DNA from: an uncultured bacterium
GTDB lineage: Bacteria; Bacillota_I; Bacilli_A; RFN20; CAG-826
NCBI GenBank assembly: GCA_949285665.1
Contig: CASDYC010000003.1
Coordinates: 1 to 38,537 of the forward strand
DNA length: 38,537 nucleotides
Direction of reading: 5' to 3'
In this document: positions 3,916-19,004 of the stretch, piece by piece
Layout: each line of letters starts with the position of its first letter
How positions within the stretch are numbered: the first letter of the stretch is position 1
Translations under genes and position numbers: made by a program
Notes under the pieces: model-generated
Databases searched by the model: none
What the model was told of the DNA's origin: nothing
Seen by the model: only the letters and a program-made list of their open reading frames with translations

Positions 3916-5603
3916 TAAAAATAAAATTTGAGGATAACACTGCTCCCAAACTAATGTTCAACCTGTTACAATGAGAGGAGGTGTTTAAGAGCTATTGAGG
4001 ATAACACTGCTCCCAAACTACCATATTTTTTAGATACTTTTATAGGGAGTTTAAGAGCTATTGAGGATAACACTGCTCCCAAACTGAGTGATATGTTTAA
4101 TCCAGTTAAATATGGTTTAAGAGCTATTGAGGATAACACTGCTCCCAAACGGTTTCATAAAAGTACCTCCATTATAGCTTGTTTAAGAGCTATTGAGGAT
4201 AACACTGCTCCCAAACATGTAAGGATTAGAATAATCAAATAATTCAGTTTAAGAGCTATTGAGGATAACACTGCTCCCAAACCTCTGGATCAACTTCTTC
4301 TGCTACTTTTGAGTTTAAGAGCTATTGAGGATAACACTGCTCCCAAACTATGATAAACACTAACAGCAATAATACAATGTTTAAGAGCTATTGAGGATAA
4401 CACTGCTCCCAAACAGGTGGCACGAGATATAAAGAAATTTTATAGTTTAAGAGCTATTGAGGATAACACTGCTCCCAAACATGAGTTTGAATGCAGAAAA
4501 AGTGCTATATGTTTAAGAGCTATTGAGGATAACACTGCTCCCAAACATGTGGGTATTAATAATACTAATAGCAATAGTTTAAGAGCTATTGAGGATAACA
4601 CTGCTCCCAAACTAGATTGTCTGTATTTTTGAGCCAAAAATTGTTTAAGAGCTATTGAGGATAACACTGCTCCCAAACTTTATCAGCATCAGATCTAATT
4701 CTTAAACCGTTTAAGAGCTATTGAGGATAACACTGCTCCCAAACTGATCATATAAACAAACTAAATATTTTGTCGTTTAAGAGCTATTGAGGATAACACT
4801 GCTCCCAAACTTGTTTTAAGTTGTCCTAAATAGTAGTTTCGTTTAAGAGCTATTGAGGATAACACTGCTCCCAAACTAATTGTCATGCAAGCACGCACGC
4901 GCGCATGTTTAAGAGCTATTGAGGATAACACTGCTCCCAAACTTTTAATTTGGTCTTTTTGAACGACATAATGTTTAAGAGCTATTGAGGATAACACTGC
5001 TCCCAAACTAAGGTTATAAACGATGTTTCTAATGCTAAGTTTAAGAGCTATTGAGGATAACACTGCTCCCAAACTATGCGTATGAAAACGAAAAAGTAAC
5101 AATAAGTTTAAGAGCTATTGAGGATAACACTGCTCCCAAACATTGTCGCTAGATATGTTTGTGTTTTCATCGTTTAAGAGCTATTGAGGATAACACTGCT
5201 CCCAAACAAAGTAGGAAACTACTAGAAAGGAGGAGAGGTTTAAGAGCTATTGAGGATAACACTGCTCCCAAACGATATAGATATATATTTCTTAGTATTG
5301 TTTGTTTAAGAGCTATTGAGGATAACACTGCTCCCAAACAAACCTTCTCGTGTTACTGGCTCTTTTGCTGTTTAAGAGCTATTGAGGATAACACTGCTCC
5401 CAAACGCCAATTTTCAATGCTACCAAAGATAATTGGTTTAAGAGCTATTGAGGATAACACTGCTCCCAAACTATACAGGATTATTGAGTGTTAATGCTGA
5501 TGTTTAAGAGCTATTGAGGATAACACTGCTCCCAAACCACTTCGTATAATGTTTAGATAGTACCCACGTTTAAGAGCTATTGAGGATAACACTGCTCCCA
5601 AAC
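3916..5603 (-). CRISPR. Type II-A CRISPR array, 26 repeats and 25 spacers
   Basis: Repeats are 36 bp, starting at 3916, 3983, 4049 and then every 66 bp to 5039, and from 5106 every 66 bp to 5568. Spacers are 30 bp, with two of 31 bp (3952-3982 and 5075-5105). On the minus (transcribed) strand the repeat begins GTTTGGGAGCAG and ends GCTCTTAAAC. The 25 copies from 3983 on appear identical; the one at 3916-3951 has lost its left 14 bases, which marks the oldest, trailer end. The youngest end therefore abuts csn2. All spacers read as distinct. Orientation rests on pairing with the tracrRNA and on the leader end. Confidence 0.98.
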
Positions 5604-6635: not shown

Positions 6636-7514
6636 CTATAAATCATAATATTTTGGAAATTTTATTGAACCAATATCACCATTATTTAATGCATTAATTA
6701 TTGAAGAAACATAAATATTTATTGAATTAGTTAAAGATTGGTTAGTGTTATTAATTGATATATCTAAATTTAAAATTTCTTGAACTTTTTCTTTATTATA
6801 AGTATTACTTATAAAACATTTACATGCAATTATATCGATTAAAGGTCGAAAAGGCTCCATTAAATCACATGAAAAATTAAATTGGTTATATTCATTTTTG
6901 TGATGAATACCAATTTGAGTTAAATACCCAAAACTAATTATTGCTCTATTAAATAAAGATAAAATTATAGAATATCCATAATTTAAAATCATGTTTATAT
7001 CATCATTATTATTTCTTGAAAATCCTTCATAAAATAAAGAATTAAAATATACTTTGGCGGCATGTCCTTCTCTATTTGTAAAGTCTCCATTAACAACGTT
7101 CGACTCAAAATTCTCAAGCAATTCCCAATTATTTTTATCTCTTCCATATTTTTTTAATACATATTTTTGATTTTTGATTTTTTGTTTAATAATTTCTTTC
7201 CAAATAATGTCTTTTAAACCATTATCCCATTTAATTTGTTCTTGTAATCTTTTTGAAGTATTATGAGAACCATATAAAGAATTCAATTGCGCTAATGGAT
7301 TATGTTTTTCGTCACAAAATATAATGTTAATTTTTCTTTTAACCATTTCTATCAGGATACTAGAAGTAATGGAAATATTTGTTGATTCAAAAATAACTGT
7401 CGAAATTTCATCTAAATGAACTCTTTTTATTTCATCAACAGTTCTAAAAACTAAATAATCAAGCGAGTATTCAATTTTTGAATGAGTAGAAATAATTAAA
7501 GTTCTAAATGCCAT
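6636..7514 (-). CDS. cas1: CRISPR-associated integrase Cas1
   Basis: This 292-residue metal-dependent integrase inserts protospacers at the leader-repeat junction. Visible active-site residues are Glu149 in TNREGHAAKVYF, His205 in IGIHHKN and Glu220 in CDLMEPFRPLID; spacing and sequence around them match type II-A Cas1. The N-terminal beta domain begins MAFRTLIISTHSKIEYSLDYL. It starts one base after the cas9 stop codon and ends just before cas2, so cas9-cas1-cas2-csn2 form a tight operon. No disruption is seen. Confidence 0.97.
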   Translation of the reverse strand: MAFRTLIISTHSKIEYSLDYLVFRTVDEIKRVHLDEISTVIFESTNISITSSILIEMVKRKINIIFCDEKHNPLAQLNSLYGSHNTSKRLQEQIKWDNGLKDIIWKEIIKQKIKNQKYVLKKYGRDKNNWELLENFESNVVNGDFTNREGHAAKVYFNSLFYEGFSRNNNDDINMILNYGYSIILSLFNRAIISFGYLTQIGIHHKNEYNQFNFSCDLMEPFRPLIDIIACKCFISNTYNKEKVQEILNLDISINNTNQSLTNSINIYVSSIINALNNGDIGSIKFPKYYDL

Positions 7515-7515
7515 T

Positions 7516-10500
7516 TTATAATTTAATATCTTTGAAGAATAAACCGGTAACTGAGGTTAATCGTAAAGTAGGATTTTCATTAATGAATTTATCCATACTA
7601 ACTCTAAAACGGCCATCTTTTCTATTAAAATATCTTACTGATTCTATTAGATTTTTAATTTGTTCATCAATTTTTAAATTTTTAAAATTGCTTTCTGGTC
7701 CAAGTAATTCAGTAATTTTTATAATTTTTTCTTTGTCTTTAAAATATTCTCTTTCTTTTTTATTTAGTTCATTTAGTAATATATTTTTCAAATCAATATT
7801 TAATTTTTTGGAAATTATATCAAATTTCGAATTTTCTTTATTTCTAACAAATTTATATTCATCTTTACTATTAAATTTTTCTTCATTATTAATATAATCT
7901 TTCTTTTTAATTATTAATTTTAAATATTTTCTATCAGAGTTTTTTAAAAATAAAGGAACAACAGGCGTAAGAATTAATTGTTTATTATTTGATAAATTTA
8001 ATAAAAACTTTGATTGAACATCATCTAGGTAAACTAATGAATTTGGATAAATTTTATTTTCAAGATCAAATTTAACATTTTTATTTGATTTTGAATAAAT
8101 CTCGCATAATCTTTTATTTAATTCATAATTAGTTAAGTTTTTAAAAATTATTGGTACTGATATCATAACTTTTTTATTTTTATCATTTTTCCCAATTACA
8201 AAATATGATCTTGATAAATTGTTAAAACCACCATATTTACTAATATCTGACAATTTATTATTGGAATGGATTGGATATAAAAGTTTATTATTACTTCTAT
8301 CTGGTCTTGCTGTGATATTTTGATCATAGAAAGCCGCATCTAAATACTTTTGTCTAAAAGTTAATAACATATCTTTTTGTTCACATATGTTTATAATTTT
8401 TTTAAGCATTTCTTCATTTACTTTAAATTCGTGTTTTATAACATTTTCAGGATTTAATGTTTTTAAATTTGAAGTATTAATTCCTCTATAATAAGTATAT
8501 CCATAATATTTTTTTAATATATCACCAGCAACAACATTTAAATATGCATCTACGGCATGATGTGTGTCATTTAATTCTCTAACTTTTGTAATTTCATATT
8601 CATTTCTAATATATGATACATTTTCGGCTTTTTGAAATAAAATTTGAGTTTTTGGAAAGATAATTTCAAAAATTTTTCTAACTAGAATATTTGAATAATC
8701 TAAAACATTTAATTGTCTATTAATAAATCCAATTTTTTCTTCTTCACTAATAGGAGTTTTTCTAATTAAAGAATTATATTTTTTAGAACTCATTAATTTC
8801 TTAGAATAAAGATATTTCCATAGTTTTTGGCAATTCTTTTGAATTGTATGATTTAATGGATATGCTGAATTCTTTTCTTTTTGATTTGTATTAACATTAA
8901 CTAAAACTTTATTATCTAAAGAATCATCTTTAATTAAACTTTTTGGAACTATATGATCAACATTATATTTGTCGGTTCCATTAATAACATCATTAAAATC
9001 AATTTGTTTACCAGTATAAATATCATAGCCTAATTGCTTAAAGTATAAATAAATTGACTCGGAATTAATTTTGATATTATTTATTTCATCATCTTTTAAA
9101 TTTTCCAAAGTTTCTGATACACTTTGAATGTTTTCTTTGTAAGTTTCATCAATATCTTTTATTAATGGATTAATTAATTGTTCTAATTCCTTATATCTAG
9201 AAGGTTTCTTTTTACCCTTTCCATTTTTATCTTTTACTTCGTTAGTTCTACGAGTTTCAATAGAAATTAATTGAGGATCATTTTTAGTTATTTTTTTAAT
9301 CTCTTTTGCAATTTTCATTGCTTGAATAGCTGGTCTTCTCATCATTGGAGGAGCACTTTCAATTACTTCATTTAATTTTTCACCAATTTTAAAATTTTCT
9401 GTTTTATCTGCATTTAAAGAATTGATTGTTTCCTGTATGTGGTATTGTTTATCATTCATTAATTGCATTAAATTTTTGGTATTATTTTTTAATAAATCTA
9501 AAATAGAACCGATAACTATGCCATCTTCATCAAAAATTGTATAAGTTAGGAATTTTTTAGATAATTTCCCCCATTCGGTGCATTTTAATTTTCTTATTGC
9601 TTTTTCTTGTTCTCTCGTCAAATTATCAAAATTTTGTTTAATTATTTTAATTGCTTGTTCTTTACTTGAATCAAAAATAGTTAATGTTTTTATTATTATT
9701 TCATCAATCTTGTTAATAATATCCGTTTTTGTTAAATCAAAAACAGGGCTTAAAATTGGCCTAATTTGAGAAGTAAATTCAAAATTATCATTTTCATTAT
9801 CAATTCCTGAAATTACAATTTCATTTTTATATTCTGTATAATTTTCTTTTAAATATTTTTTCATTTGTCGTATTGTTGTCTTTTTATTTTTGTTTATAAA
9901 GTCAAACAATTTTAATTTTATGTCTTGATTAATAACTGAACCATTAATTTTTAATGTATTTAATATATTAAGATTAATAAAATCATTATAAATAATTGAA
10001 CATCTTGGTAAAACACTTTCACCAATTAAATATGTGCAATCACTAACATGATCATCAATAAATTTTTTACTTGTTTTATCTTTATCAACTAATTCACTAA
10101 AATTCCAAGGCAAAATCTTTTCATAATTGTTACTTTTAAAAACAACATTTGAATATTTTGATTTATCATTTATTGGACCATAGTAATATTCAATTTTATA
10201 TCTAAATATATCCTTTATTTTTTGTATATTATTATCCTTTTTTAAAAATTCAAAATGTTTACTCGCATTTTTTAAAATAATATCAAGTTCTTTTTCATGA
10301 AATTGATGCGGAAATGAACTACTATTTACATCAGAAATTCGTTGCAAAAATGAATTATTTTTAATTGCTAACTCAATTTTATTTAGATACTCTTGTAATC
10401 TAGGATCGCTATCTATTTTAGATTTAAAACCTTCGTTACTTTTTATACTACTTATAAAATCTTTACAACTATTTAAAAAAGAATTATAACCCTTTTCTTT

Positions 10501-11691
10501 ACCATAAATATATTCATTAGGATTGTCAATAAATTTAGCATAAGATGGTATTTTACTTTGTTTGTAATCAATGTTCTTTTCCTTGCAATAATTATCACTA
10601 TTTCTATTAAAAATTTTTCTATATACAGCATGCTCATATCCATATAATTTTTTTACGATATATTTAAACATTTCTAATTCTTTATCATGTTTTTTATAAA
10701 CATCAACCATACTTTCTGAAAGATAAGTATTTTTTCCTAAAAATTTCTTTACATATATAGCATCATAAATTTGTTTTGCAAAATCTAATAATAAAATTTT
10801 TTCTTTCAAAATTTTTTCATAATTTTCTCTATTTTCTTCATAGTTTTTTGTAAATGTTACTGTTTCATTTAAGTCTTCATCACCAATTTTACACGAGCCA
10901 CCAGTAACACTATGAACAAATAAATCGATTAAGGAATTCCATTCTTTGGTACCTTCTTTGTCTAAATCATATGCTGAACCATTTTTAAATAAACTTTTAA
11001 TATCTTTTTGACACTTTTTTGTATCATTTTTATCAATGTTATCTACTAATATTTGAAAAATTTGATTATATGTATCTTTACCTAAAATTTGTTCTACTTC
11101 AATTTCATCTTCTGATTTATCTTGGATAAAATTTACCAGTAAATCATTAACATTTTCAATTGTTTCGTAACTAACGGGATTATTATCATAATTGCTTTCA
11201 GTTAAAAAATTACCTCTTTTCTTAATGATATGATGTACAGTTAGATATAAATATCTTACATCTTTAAAACTTCCTTCTTCATCATAAATTTGAGCTTTTC
11301 TTAAATGATATATAGTTTTGTAGTTTTGATAGAATTCTTTTTCTTCATCTTTATTTTTAAATAATGGATATTTAACTTTATTATTGTCAGATTTATCTTC
11401 TAACCATAAATTAGATTCATTTAATCTTAAAAAGAAAGTTGGATCAATTTTGTTTATTTCGTCTTTAAAAACGTAATTATTTAATAAATAAATTCTGTAG
11501 TTTCTTCTTTGAAGTCTTCTTCTATTAGAACGCATACTTCTTCTAAATTTTGCATCACTTGCTTCATCAAATAATCTACATCCCCAAGCTGTTTTACCAT
11601 TTAATTTTAATAAATTATAATTTTCATCTGTAACAGCCCAACCAATTGAGTTTGAGCCTATATCAAGTCCTAAATAATATTTGTCAACCAT
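7516..11691 (-). CDS. cas9: CRISPR effector endonuclease Cas9 (type II-A)
   Basis: This 1391-residue RNA-guided DNA endonuclease is in the size range of long II-A Cas9 proteins. All catalytic positions are intact: RuvC-I Asp10 in YLGLDIGSNSIGWA, RuvC-II Glu812 in SIETRR, HNH His913 in NVDHIVPKS, and RuvC-III His1045/Asp1048 in HHAVDAY. The arginine-rich bridge helix (RRSMRSNRRRLQRRNYR) follows RuvC-I. The long middle is the helical recognition lobe and the last roughly 280 residues should hold the PAM-interacting domain, whose specificity cannot be read by eye. The start is ATG preceded by AAGGAG. It is the first gene of the cas operon, directly downstream of the tracrRNA terminator, so it appears to use its own promoter (TGGTAAAAT-like -10 near 11730). 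Confidence 0.98.
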   Translation of the reverse strand: MVDKYYLGLDIGSNSIGWAVTDENYNLLKLNGKTAWGCRLFDEASDAKFRRSMRSNRRRLQRRNYRIYLLNNYVFKDEINKIDPTFFLRLNESNLWLEDKSDNNKVKYPLFKNKDEEKEFYQNYKTIYHLRKAQIYDEEGSFKDVRYLYLTVHHIIKKRGNFLTESNYDNNPVSYETIENVNDLLVNFIQDKSEDEIEVEQILGKDTYNQIFQILVDNIDKNDTKKCQKDIKSLFKNGSAYDLDKEGTKEWNSLIDLFVHSVTGGSCKIGDEDLNETVTFTKNYEENRENYEKILKEKILLLDFAKQIYDAIYVKKFLGKNTYLSESMVDVYKKHDKELEMFKYIVKKLYGYEHAVYRKIFNRNSDNYCKEKNIDYKQSKIPSYAKFIDNPNEYIYGKEKGYNSFLNSCKDFISSIKSNEGFKSKIDSDPRLQEYLNKIELAIKNNSFLQRISDVNSSSFPHQFHEKELDIILKNASKHFEFLKKDNNIQKIKDIFRYKIEYYYGPINDKSKYSNVVFKSNNYEKILPWNFSELVDKDKTSKKFIDDHVSDCTYLIGESVLPRCSIIYNDFINLNILNTLKINGSVINQDIKLKLFDFINKNKKTTIRQMKKYLKENYTEYKNEIVISGIDNENDNFEFTSQIRPILSPVFDLTKTDIINKIDEIIIKTLTIFDSSKEQAIKIIKQNFDNLTREQEKAIRKLKCTEWGKLSKKFLTYTIFDEDGIVIGSILDLLKNNTKNLMQLMNDKQYHIQETINSLNADKTENFKIGEKLNEVIESAPPMMRRPAIQAMKIAKEIKKITKNDPQLISIETRRTNEVKDKNGKGKKKPSRYKELEQLINPLIKDIDETYKENIQSVSETLENLKDDEINNIKINSESIYLYFKQLGYDIYTGKQIDFNDVINGTDKYNVDHIVPKSLIKDDSLDNKVLVNVNTNQKEKNSAYPLNHTIQKNCQKLWKYLYSKKLMSSKKYNSLIRKTPISEEEKIGFINRQLNVLDYSNILVRKIFEIIFPKTQILFQKAENVSYIRNEYEITKVRELNDTHHAVDAYLNVVAGDILKKYYGYTYYRGINTSNLKTLNPENVIKHEFKVNEEMLKKIINICEQKDMLLTFRQKYLDAAFYDQNITARPDRSNNKLLYPIHSNNKLSDISKYGGFNNLSRSYFVIGKNDKNKKVMISVPIIFKNLTNYELNKRLCEIYSKSNKNVKFDLENKIYPNSLVYLDDVQSKFLLNLSNNKQLILTPVVPLFLKNSDRKYLKLIIKKKDYINNEEKFNSKDEYKFVRNKENSKFDIISKKLNIDLKNILLNELNKKEREYFKDKEKIIKITELLGPESNFKNLKIDEQIKNLIESVRYFNRKDGRFRVSMDKFINENPTLRLTSVTGLFFKDIKL

Positions 11692-17390: not shown

Positions 17391-17600
17391 TTATTTATTT
17401 TTAGCATTATATACAAGACCACTTGTAACATCACCTCTTGCAATAATTCTATTATAAAAATCTTTTGTAACATTTTGACTTTTATAATATGTTCCAAGTA
17501 TGCGATTATAAAAATCATATGCTACTTTATCGCCGTTTGGTTTTTCTTCAATATAACCTAATATTCTGTTATAAAAATCTTTGATTGGTACTCTACTCAT
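17391..17600 (-). CDS. Small protein made of three DFYNRI repeats
   Basis: The 69-residue ORF has a good AAGGAG site ten bases before its ATG. Three near-repeats fill most of it: KDFYNRILGYIEEKPNGDK (about 7-25), YDFYNRILGTYYKSQNVT (28-45) and KDFYNRIIARGDVTSG (46-61). The spacing of about 19-22 residues and the alternating hydrophobic and charged pattern suggest small beta hairpins that could stack or self-assemble. There is no signal peptide, membrane segment or catalytic motif. Comparable small DFYGRI-type ORFs occur in Firmicutes with unreliable enzyme names; I give none. It is encoded just upstream of the SHOCT gene on the same strand, 104 bases away. Confidence 0.65.
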   Translation of the reverse strand: MSRVPIKDFYNRILGYIEEKPNGDKVAYDFYNRILGTYYKSQNVTKDFYNRIIARGDVTSGLVYNAKNK

Positions 17601-17805
17601 AATAATTATTTCTCCTTTTTATATAGATATTTTACATAAACTATATTAATTAATTTATAAATTTTTATAAGCTCGTTATTATATGTTTTAAAGCTTTCTT
17701 TATATTAATAAGAATTAAGTTGTTTTTATACTAAATTAGTTATTTTTAATTTACTGATTAAAAAATTGACAATTTTTAAGCATTTTGAAATTGCATTTCT
17801 TTTAC

Positions 17806-18399: not shown

Positions 18400-18927
18400 T
18401 TAATTTTCTTTCTTAGGTATTATTGGCAATAAAATATAAGGTTTATCGTTTTCATCAGAATATATTGTTGTAATTCCATGATATGATTTAGATTTACTGT
18501 CAATATTATGAGTATACATAGCTTATCCTTTCCATACTTTATCATGTTTTAATAAAGCTAACATTACTTTTAAAGATAGCGTTCTAAATAAACTAAGTAG
18601 CATTCTTAAACGTAGATATGATGAAATATTAACTCTTGACCATTTATCTTTACTAGTAAATGAAAAATCTTTTCCTCCAACATAAAATACTAAACGATAT
18701 CCTTTTGGAACAATAACCGATGTAGGCCATACTTCTACTACATCAAGCTGAACTTTTTCGTTTTCTTTTAGAAGTTGTTTTTCATCATGAGTATGATATG
18801 GACGATATGGTTTACTTTTTTCATGATCAAGTTTTCTATGAGATACACGTAACCAACCATTAGTTATTACTCCATGTTAATCATTTTCCGATATAAAAGA
18901 AAGATCTTTTTCATTTTCATGTTTTAA
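18400..18927 (-). pseudogene. Decayed CocE/NonD-family hydrolase (C-terminal fragment)
   Basis: One minus-strand frame reads TNGWLRVSHRKLDHEKSKP, then KPYRPYHTHDEKQLLKENE, VQLDVVEVWPTSVIVPKGYR, and near the end DKPYILLPIIPKK. These are the C-terminal jelly-roll (X-Pro dipeptidyl-peptidase C-like) blocks of CocE/NonD hydrolases, in the right order. The frame is broken by TAA just before the TNGWLR block and by another TAA after KVWKG, and the alpha/beta-hydrolase part with the catalytic serine is missing. The piece between GGKDF and the last block does not fit the family, suggesting replacement or drift. It is a dead remnant, confidently non-functional; the exact left and right edges are estimates. 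Confidence 0.75.
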
Positions 18928-18928
18928 T

Positions 18929-18951
18929 AAAAAAAGCCCGACTTCTCGGAC
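18929..18951 (-). terminator. Terminator after tRNA-Ser(GCU)
   Basis: On the minus strand the hairpin CCGA-GAAG-TCGG is followed by GC and a run of seven T. It lies 54 bases downstream of the tRNA gene and ends its transcript. Confidence 0.75.
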
Positions 18952-19004
18952 ATATATAATTAATTTTGACACATTTGAATTATATCAAAATATTAGCTAT
19001 ACGA

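Follow-up and report, generated by a model that had tools for sequence, protein, structure and literature searches.

A small three-repeat protein of an uncultured bacterium, predicted to be half a beta-flower, and its relatives in bacteria and phages

The locus

The whole stretch of DNA analysed here (the window; 38,537 nucleotides from an uncultured bacterium) encodes on its minus strand, at positions 17391–17600, a protein of 69 residues in an open reading frame with an ATG start. The features of the gene and of the structural model of its protein are the following:

17391..17600, minus strand: predicted three-petal protein, 69 aa, MSRVPIKDFYNRILGYIEEKPNGDKVAYDFYNRILGTYYKSQNVTKDFYNRIIARGDVTSGLVYNAKNK (open reading frame, relatives, AlphaFold2 model)
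17601..17619, minus strand: putative ribosome-binding site, AAAAGGAGAAATAATTATT (sequence)
17565..17579, minus strand: predicted petal tip 1, DFYNR, residues 8–12, turn between strands 2–7 and 13–19
17502..17516, minus strand: predicted petal tip 2, DFYNR, residues 29–33, turn between strands 25–29 and 34–39
17448..17462, minus strand: predicted petal tip 3, DFYNR, residues 47–51, turn between strands 44–47 and 52–55
17397..17426, minus strand: predicted C-terminal helix, residues 59–68 (DSSP on the model)

The hexamer DFYNRI is present exactly three times (residues 8–13, 29–34 and 47–52), and 100,000 shuffles of its residues never produced a 5-mer in three copies. This bears out the earlier sequence-only reading, which had noticed three near-copies in 69 residues. 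Its description of the protein as made almost only of DFYNRI repeats was an overstatement, since the exact hexamer accounts for about 26% of the residues and the repeated unit is a hairpin of 17–21 residues. The ribosome site, which it had called good, is plausible: AAAAGGAG is located 5' of the ATG, with a gap of 11 bases between GGAG and ATG that is slightly long.

The gene downstream shows a plausible match to SHOCT (23 bits, Pfam cut-off 27), and the gene upstream a weak protein-kinase/Bud32-like match. The intergenic gaps are 104 and 205 bases and the genes need not form an operon. The wider surroundings comprise proS, tRNA genes and housekeeping genes, and phage genes were not seen around the gene. 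Elsewhere in the window, at 3982–5603 and 6636–11691, repeats of about 36 bases with a period of about 66 accompany open reading frames for a Cas9-like (1391 aa) and a Cas1-like (292 aa) protein, which, named by eye, looks like a type II CRISPR-Cas locus. Moreover, a frame with internal stops at 18420–18960 on the minus strand resembles by eye an X-Pro dipeptidyl-peptidase/CocE-type hydrolase in its C-terminal part and is likely a gene remnant.

A family of small three-repeat proteins

Searches of the window protein against the Pfam, NCBIfam and PHROG models gave no match beyond noise, and none was found in the PDB by sequence; eIF-3c_N and DUF3316 (Pfam) and superoxide dismutase (PDB) were rejected as matches below significance. 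Judged from its relatives, the open reading frame is a real gene, because a second genome within the family encodes an 82% identical protein and further relatives with 35–60% identity are found elsewhere. Weaker matches than the 82% identical protein include proteins on plasmids of Microvirga, Cupriavidus, Synechocystis and Caballeronia. The plasmid carriers are in part proteobacterial and in part cyanobacterial. The protein belongs to an unnamed family of three-repeat proteins of about 60–75 residues with a common layout of three [KR]-D-x-x-[GNHF]-[RKHM]-x-[LIV]-G units followed by G-[ND]-x-x-x-x-L-[LIV].

In a profile search the family was detected in 41 of 279 genomes of the order, mostly with one copy per genome, and in a few other genomes of the class. 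Furthermore, members are encoded on at least 12 IMG/VR viral contigs, including gut phage contigs. One genome (G136) holds three copies, and three members (L062, L063 and L064) form a subfamily with DFNTRQ-type tips, in which the tip of every one of the three repeats has one inserted residue. An AddA-like helicase with two DFYNRI motifs (L005) was rejected as a relative, the motif match being due to chance. A match inside a frame of 2175 residues in genome G081 was not reproduced by a broader profile and therefore gives no evidence of a fusion. The three-petal form is very small, occurs in bacteria and phages and is absent from the family libraries searched, making it a minimal experimental system.

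Predicted fold

AlphaFold2 models were built for the window protein and for a second member, L089, from the same set of 14 sequences, and the two models are consequently not independent. Their mean pLDDT values are 93.4 for the window protein and 92.9 for L089, and both show six strands followed by a C-terminal helix. In the model of the window protein each DFYNR sits at a hairpin turn. The helix is only partly hydrophobic in this protein, and relatives are hydrophobic at this position (e.g., GNLLSMLL).

In Foldseek searches with both models no match reached an E-value of 0.001. Among the 50 PDB matches listed, the Tubby/scramblase-like protein 1ZXU from Arabidopsis had the top probability for both models (0.96 and 0.93), with TM-scores by query of 0.55 for the window protein model and 0.53 for the L089 model. 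VIA listed 1ZXU twice (Z 3.6 and 4.1) and human TULP1 once (Z 4.5), all of these being low Z scores; DUF3836 scored better than these Tubby-like proteins (Z 5.0 and 5.4, the latter being the maximum), values too low to claim kinship. As the structural Z scores are low and no Foldseek match reaches E 0.001, the fold assignment rests on the combined evidence, including the relatives described below. Taken together, the models and motifs suggest that the window protein very likely adopts a half beta-flower fold.

Relationship to beta-flowers

The name of the beta-flower fold dates from 2023, when no function was known for it, and its description includes a [DNEQ]xxG tip, half flowers and, in many members, a hydrophobic C-terminal helix; 1ZXU is the structure that was set against the beta-flowers in the same study (PMC10584680). 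Most three-repeat relatives have DxxG at the petal tip, the window protein has DFYN, and both models show hairpins there. None of the three-repeat members tested scored above a Pfam cut-off; the best match, to PF21784 (14.2 bits against a cut-off of 25, E 0.059), belongs to a plasmid-borne relative. The window protein itself gave no match to PF21784–PF21786 (clan CL0395). In the models the number of petals per chain is three, compared to the four, five or six that close a shallow barrel in these Pfam families. A 4-fold beta flower was looked for in the genome of the window and was not found.

The connection is provided by larger proteins of the same order. Two matches of the three-repeat profile are proteins of 114 residues with six similar repeats of 16 residues and a C-terminal hydrophobic segment, a six-repeat protein being reached at 6e-11 in a small search. 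Such six-repeat relatives are present in 64 of the 273 genomes searched from the order. Among those that share the [DE]-[FY]-x-G-R unit with the three-repeat proteins, five of six matched PF21785 (best E-value 3e-12), three of six matched PF21786 and one matched LURP-one-related (LOR) at 0.00098. In profile-profile comparison the three-repeat family aligned with the FSG/FYG-type six-repeat set at a probability of 96.7%, over 10 columns (one repeat) only; with the Cys-type set no significant alignment was obtained. The C-terminal helix of the three-repeat form corresponds to the longer hydrophobic segment of the six-repeat relatives. In viral contigs no six-repeat relatives were found. Since the beta-flower models of Pfam recognise single-chain six-repeat relatives from the same order, we read the window protein, by predicted fold and motif, as half of a six-petal beta-flower and not as a member of a Pfam family.

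Three-repeat and six-repeat forms across genomes

Three-repeat genes were found in 40 genomes and intact six-repeat genes in 62 genomes of this comparison, and in no genome do they occur together, the expected overlap being about nine. In the two apparent exceptions among the genomes with a three-repeat gene, G222 and G182, only remnants with two repeats are present, and the one in G222 lies next to the gene that also adjoins the intact six-repeat copies. A within-genus estimate, for which approximate genus sizes were used, also favours mutual exclusion. This pattern may be partly a product of descent. It is consistent with, but no proof of, two split chains pairing to take over the role of the single-chain form. 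As far as we have checked, the finding that the two forms never occur together appears not to have been described before.

Petal tips are alike within each protein

The four residues following the tip aspartate were compared in register between repeats, and their identity was 0.645 within proteins compared to 0.34 between proteins (z 22). For 28 sequences below 50% identity the values were 0.56 and 0.30 (z 14). Out of register no excess was observed, showing that amino-acid composition is not the cause of the likeness, and the in-register excess remains after removal of the DFY-type members. Tip chemistry varies widely among relatives (e.g., DEHFK, DASGR and DALGR), which argues against one ligand common to all. 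The same homogeneity is present in the six-repeat proteins, about half of 20 having YCG at all six tips (L123, L124, L127, L129, L130, L133–L136 and L138). For these, the sequences predict a ring of six cysteines that might be a metal or redox site.

Repeats that are more alike within one protein than between proteins could also have arisen by recent repeat duplication or gene conversion, without any functional symmetry. This explanation is quite improbable as, at matching residues, codons agree in 390 of 789 cases and 387 are expected from codon usage. Synonymous sites of the repeats thus differ, on average, as freely as in unrelated codons, a few members (L076, L026) with codon agreement above expectation being the exception, and in the window protein the three tip arginines are encoded by AGA, CGC and AGA. 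As judged from the codons, which match only as chance predicts, it is selection for equal petals that keeps the tips alike and symmetric, and not conversion of DNA. Tips that are alike within a protein and different between proteins appear, as far as checked, to be undescribed. Their concerted change without homogenisation of the DNA suggests that all petals touch one thing, and the question what beta-flowers bind thereby becomes testable.

Alternative explanations and genomic neighbours

The sequence-only reading had proposed the SHOCT and kinase-like proteins as possible partners. In such a partnership the window protein would bind the former, be a phosphorylation substrate of the latter, or both. 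All that speaks for this is that the genes are adjacent and on the same strand in the window, separated by the gaps given above. Among 40 carrier genomes checked, the SHOCT gene adjoins the three-repeat gene only in the genome of the window itself; relatives of the kinase-like protein are present in 57 of 196 genomes, none of them beside the three-repeat gene where genomes carry the latter; and blast clustering of the genes flanking about 40 copies gave no SHOCT or kinase neighbour in common. The idea fails by the refuting condition that the sequence-only reading had itself named, since no relative elsewhere adjoins either gene, and such a partnership is highly improbable. In the same clustering no neighbour of any kind recurs across genera.

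On phage contigs a gene for a protein of about 120 residues is located directly before the three-repeat gene, and once directly after it, on 12 contigs (8 distinct). Around those bacterial copies that were inspected no such gene was found, and three of the phage proteins tested against PHROG gave no match. The adjoining copies are:

L079:2627-3001, L083:2630-2983, L084:2648-3004, L086:2593-2955: phage gene of about 120 aa, adjoins the three-repeat gene
L088:3201-3551, L091:2601-2990, L097:2651-3001, L100:2603-2989: phage gene of about 120 aa, adjoins the three-repeat gene

This conserved neighbour is a candidate partner of the three-repeat protein and bears on two further explanations. The protein might be a monomeric mini-fold in which the helix closes the open face of three hairpins and the tips touch one partner protein, without any six-petal barrel being formed. 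A single chain modelled alone with high confidence by AlphaFold2 is in line with this, and the phage neighbour could be the hetero-partner. However, both the mutual exclusion with single-chain six-repeat proteins and the match to a part of the Tubby-like barrel of 1ZXU are better explained by pairing of half flowers, and we regard the monomer as rather unlikely. The gene might alternatively be an accessory gene of phages or mobile elements (a moron) that acts on the host cell, the sporadic bacterial copies being derived from there. Several of the viral contigs with members show phage genes nearby (terminase-like, NrdD, SSB-like), the upstream gene is coupled to it on phage contigs, its occurrence in bacteria is patchy and plasmid copies exist. 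Such an origin is nevertheless doubtful, given that the window gene lies among proS, tRNA and housekeeping genes and that several related genomes keep the gene beside conserved chromosomal genes, named by eye as tyrosyl-tRNA synthetase-like and rpsD-like.

Proposed mode of action

The window protein would be a small cytosolic half beta-flower in which each DFYNR forms the tip of a beta-hairpin petal, i.e., a [DNEQ]xxG tip with asparagine in place of glycine. The three petals are confidently predicted to build a curved six-stranded sheet that carries the C-terminal helix. Two copies would then close a barrel of six petals, the counterpart of those beta-flowers of the order that carry all six repeats in one chain, with the C-terminal helices in or on its channel; the chances of this homodimer are about even. 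Six near-identical tips would form a symmetric ring of aromatic and basic residues, kept alike by selection because all of them would engage one partner jointly. If Tubby-like and scramblase proteins are a guide, this partner might be a lipid head group or the surface of a membrane, or alternatively a symmetric protein, and lipid or membrane binding by the window protein itself is a possibility to which we give rather little weight. For the account as a whole, comprising fold, dimer and joint action of the tips, we consider the balance to be level. The suggestion of the sequence-only reading that the repeats serve self-assembly or binding to a repeated ligand is accordingly plausible in a modified form, with symmetric petals, probable pairing and selected tips, and without its SHOCT and kinase partners. 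More tentatively, and at somewhat less than even chances, half beta-flowers might be a widespread family that forms symmetric rings, with selection driving a concerted evolution of the tips, the ligand of the whole ring changing between species and phages and the single-chain six-petal and split three-petal forms replacing each other.

Comparison with known systems

With the 4-fold and 5-fold beta flowers (PF21784 and PF21785) the predicted half flower shares the petal unit, and PF21784 weakly matches the plasmid relative and PF21785 the six-repeat relatives; the petal number differs and the window protein itself scores nothing. The 6-fold beta flower (PF21786), together with the six-repeat relatives of the order, has the same kind of beta-hairpin repeat (16 residues there, 17–21 here), the [DNEQ]xxG tip, the C-terminal helix and a related tip, DFYGR. 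Unlike PF21786, the family has three and not six repeats and 60–75 residues compared to about 114, and the window protein has asparagine for the tip glycine and no Pfam match. The Tubby C-terminal, LURP-one-related and phospholipid scramblase proteins (1ZXU, TULP1) are complete barrels of about 160–240 residues with longer strands, the fold having 12 strands around a central helix, whereas here only a half is predicted; curved antiparallel hairpins and a hydrophobic helix are seen there and are predicted here.
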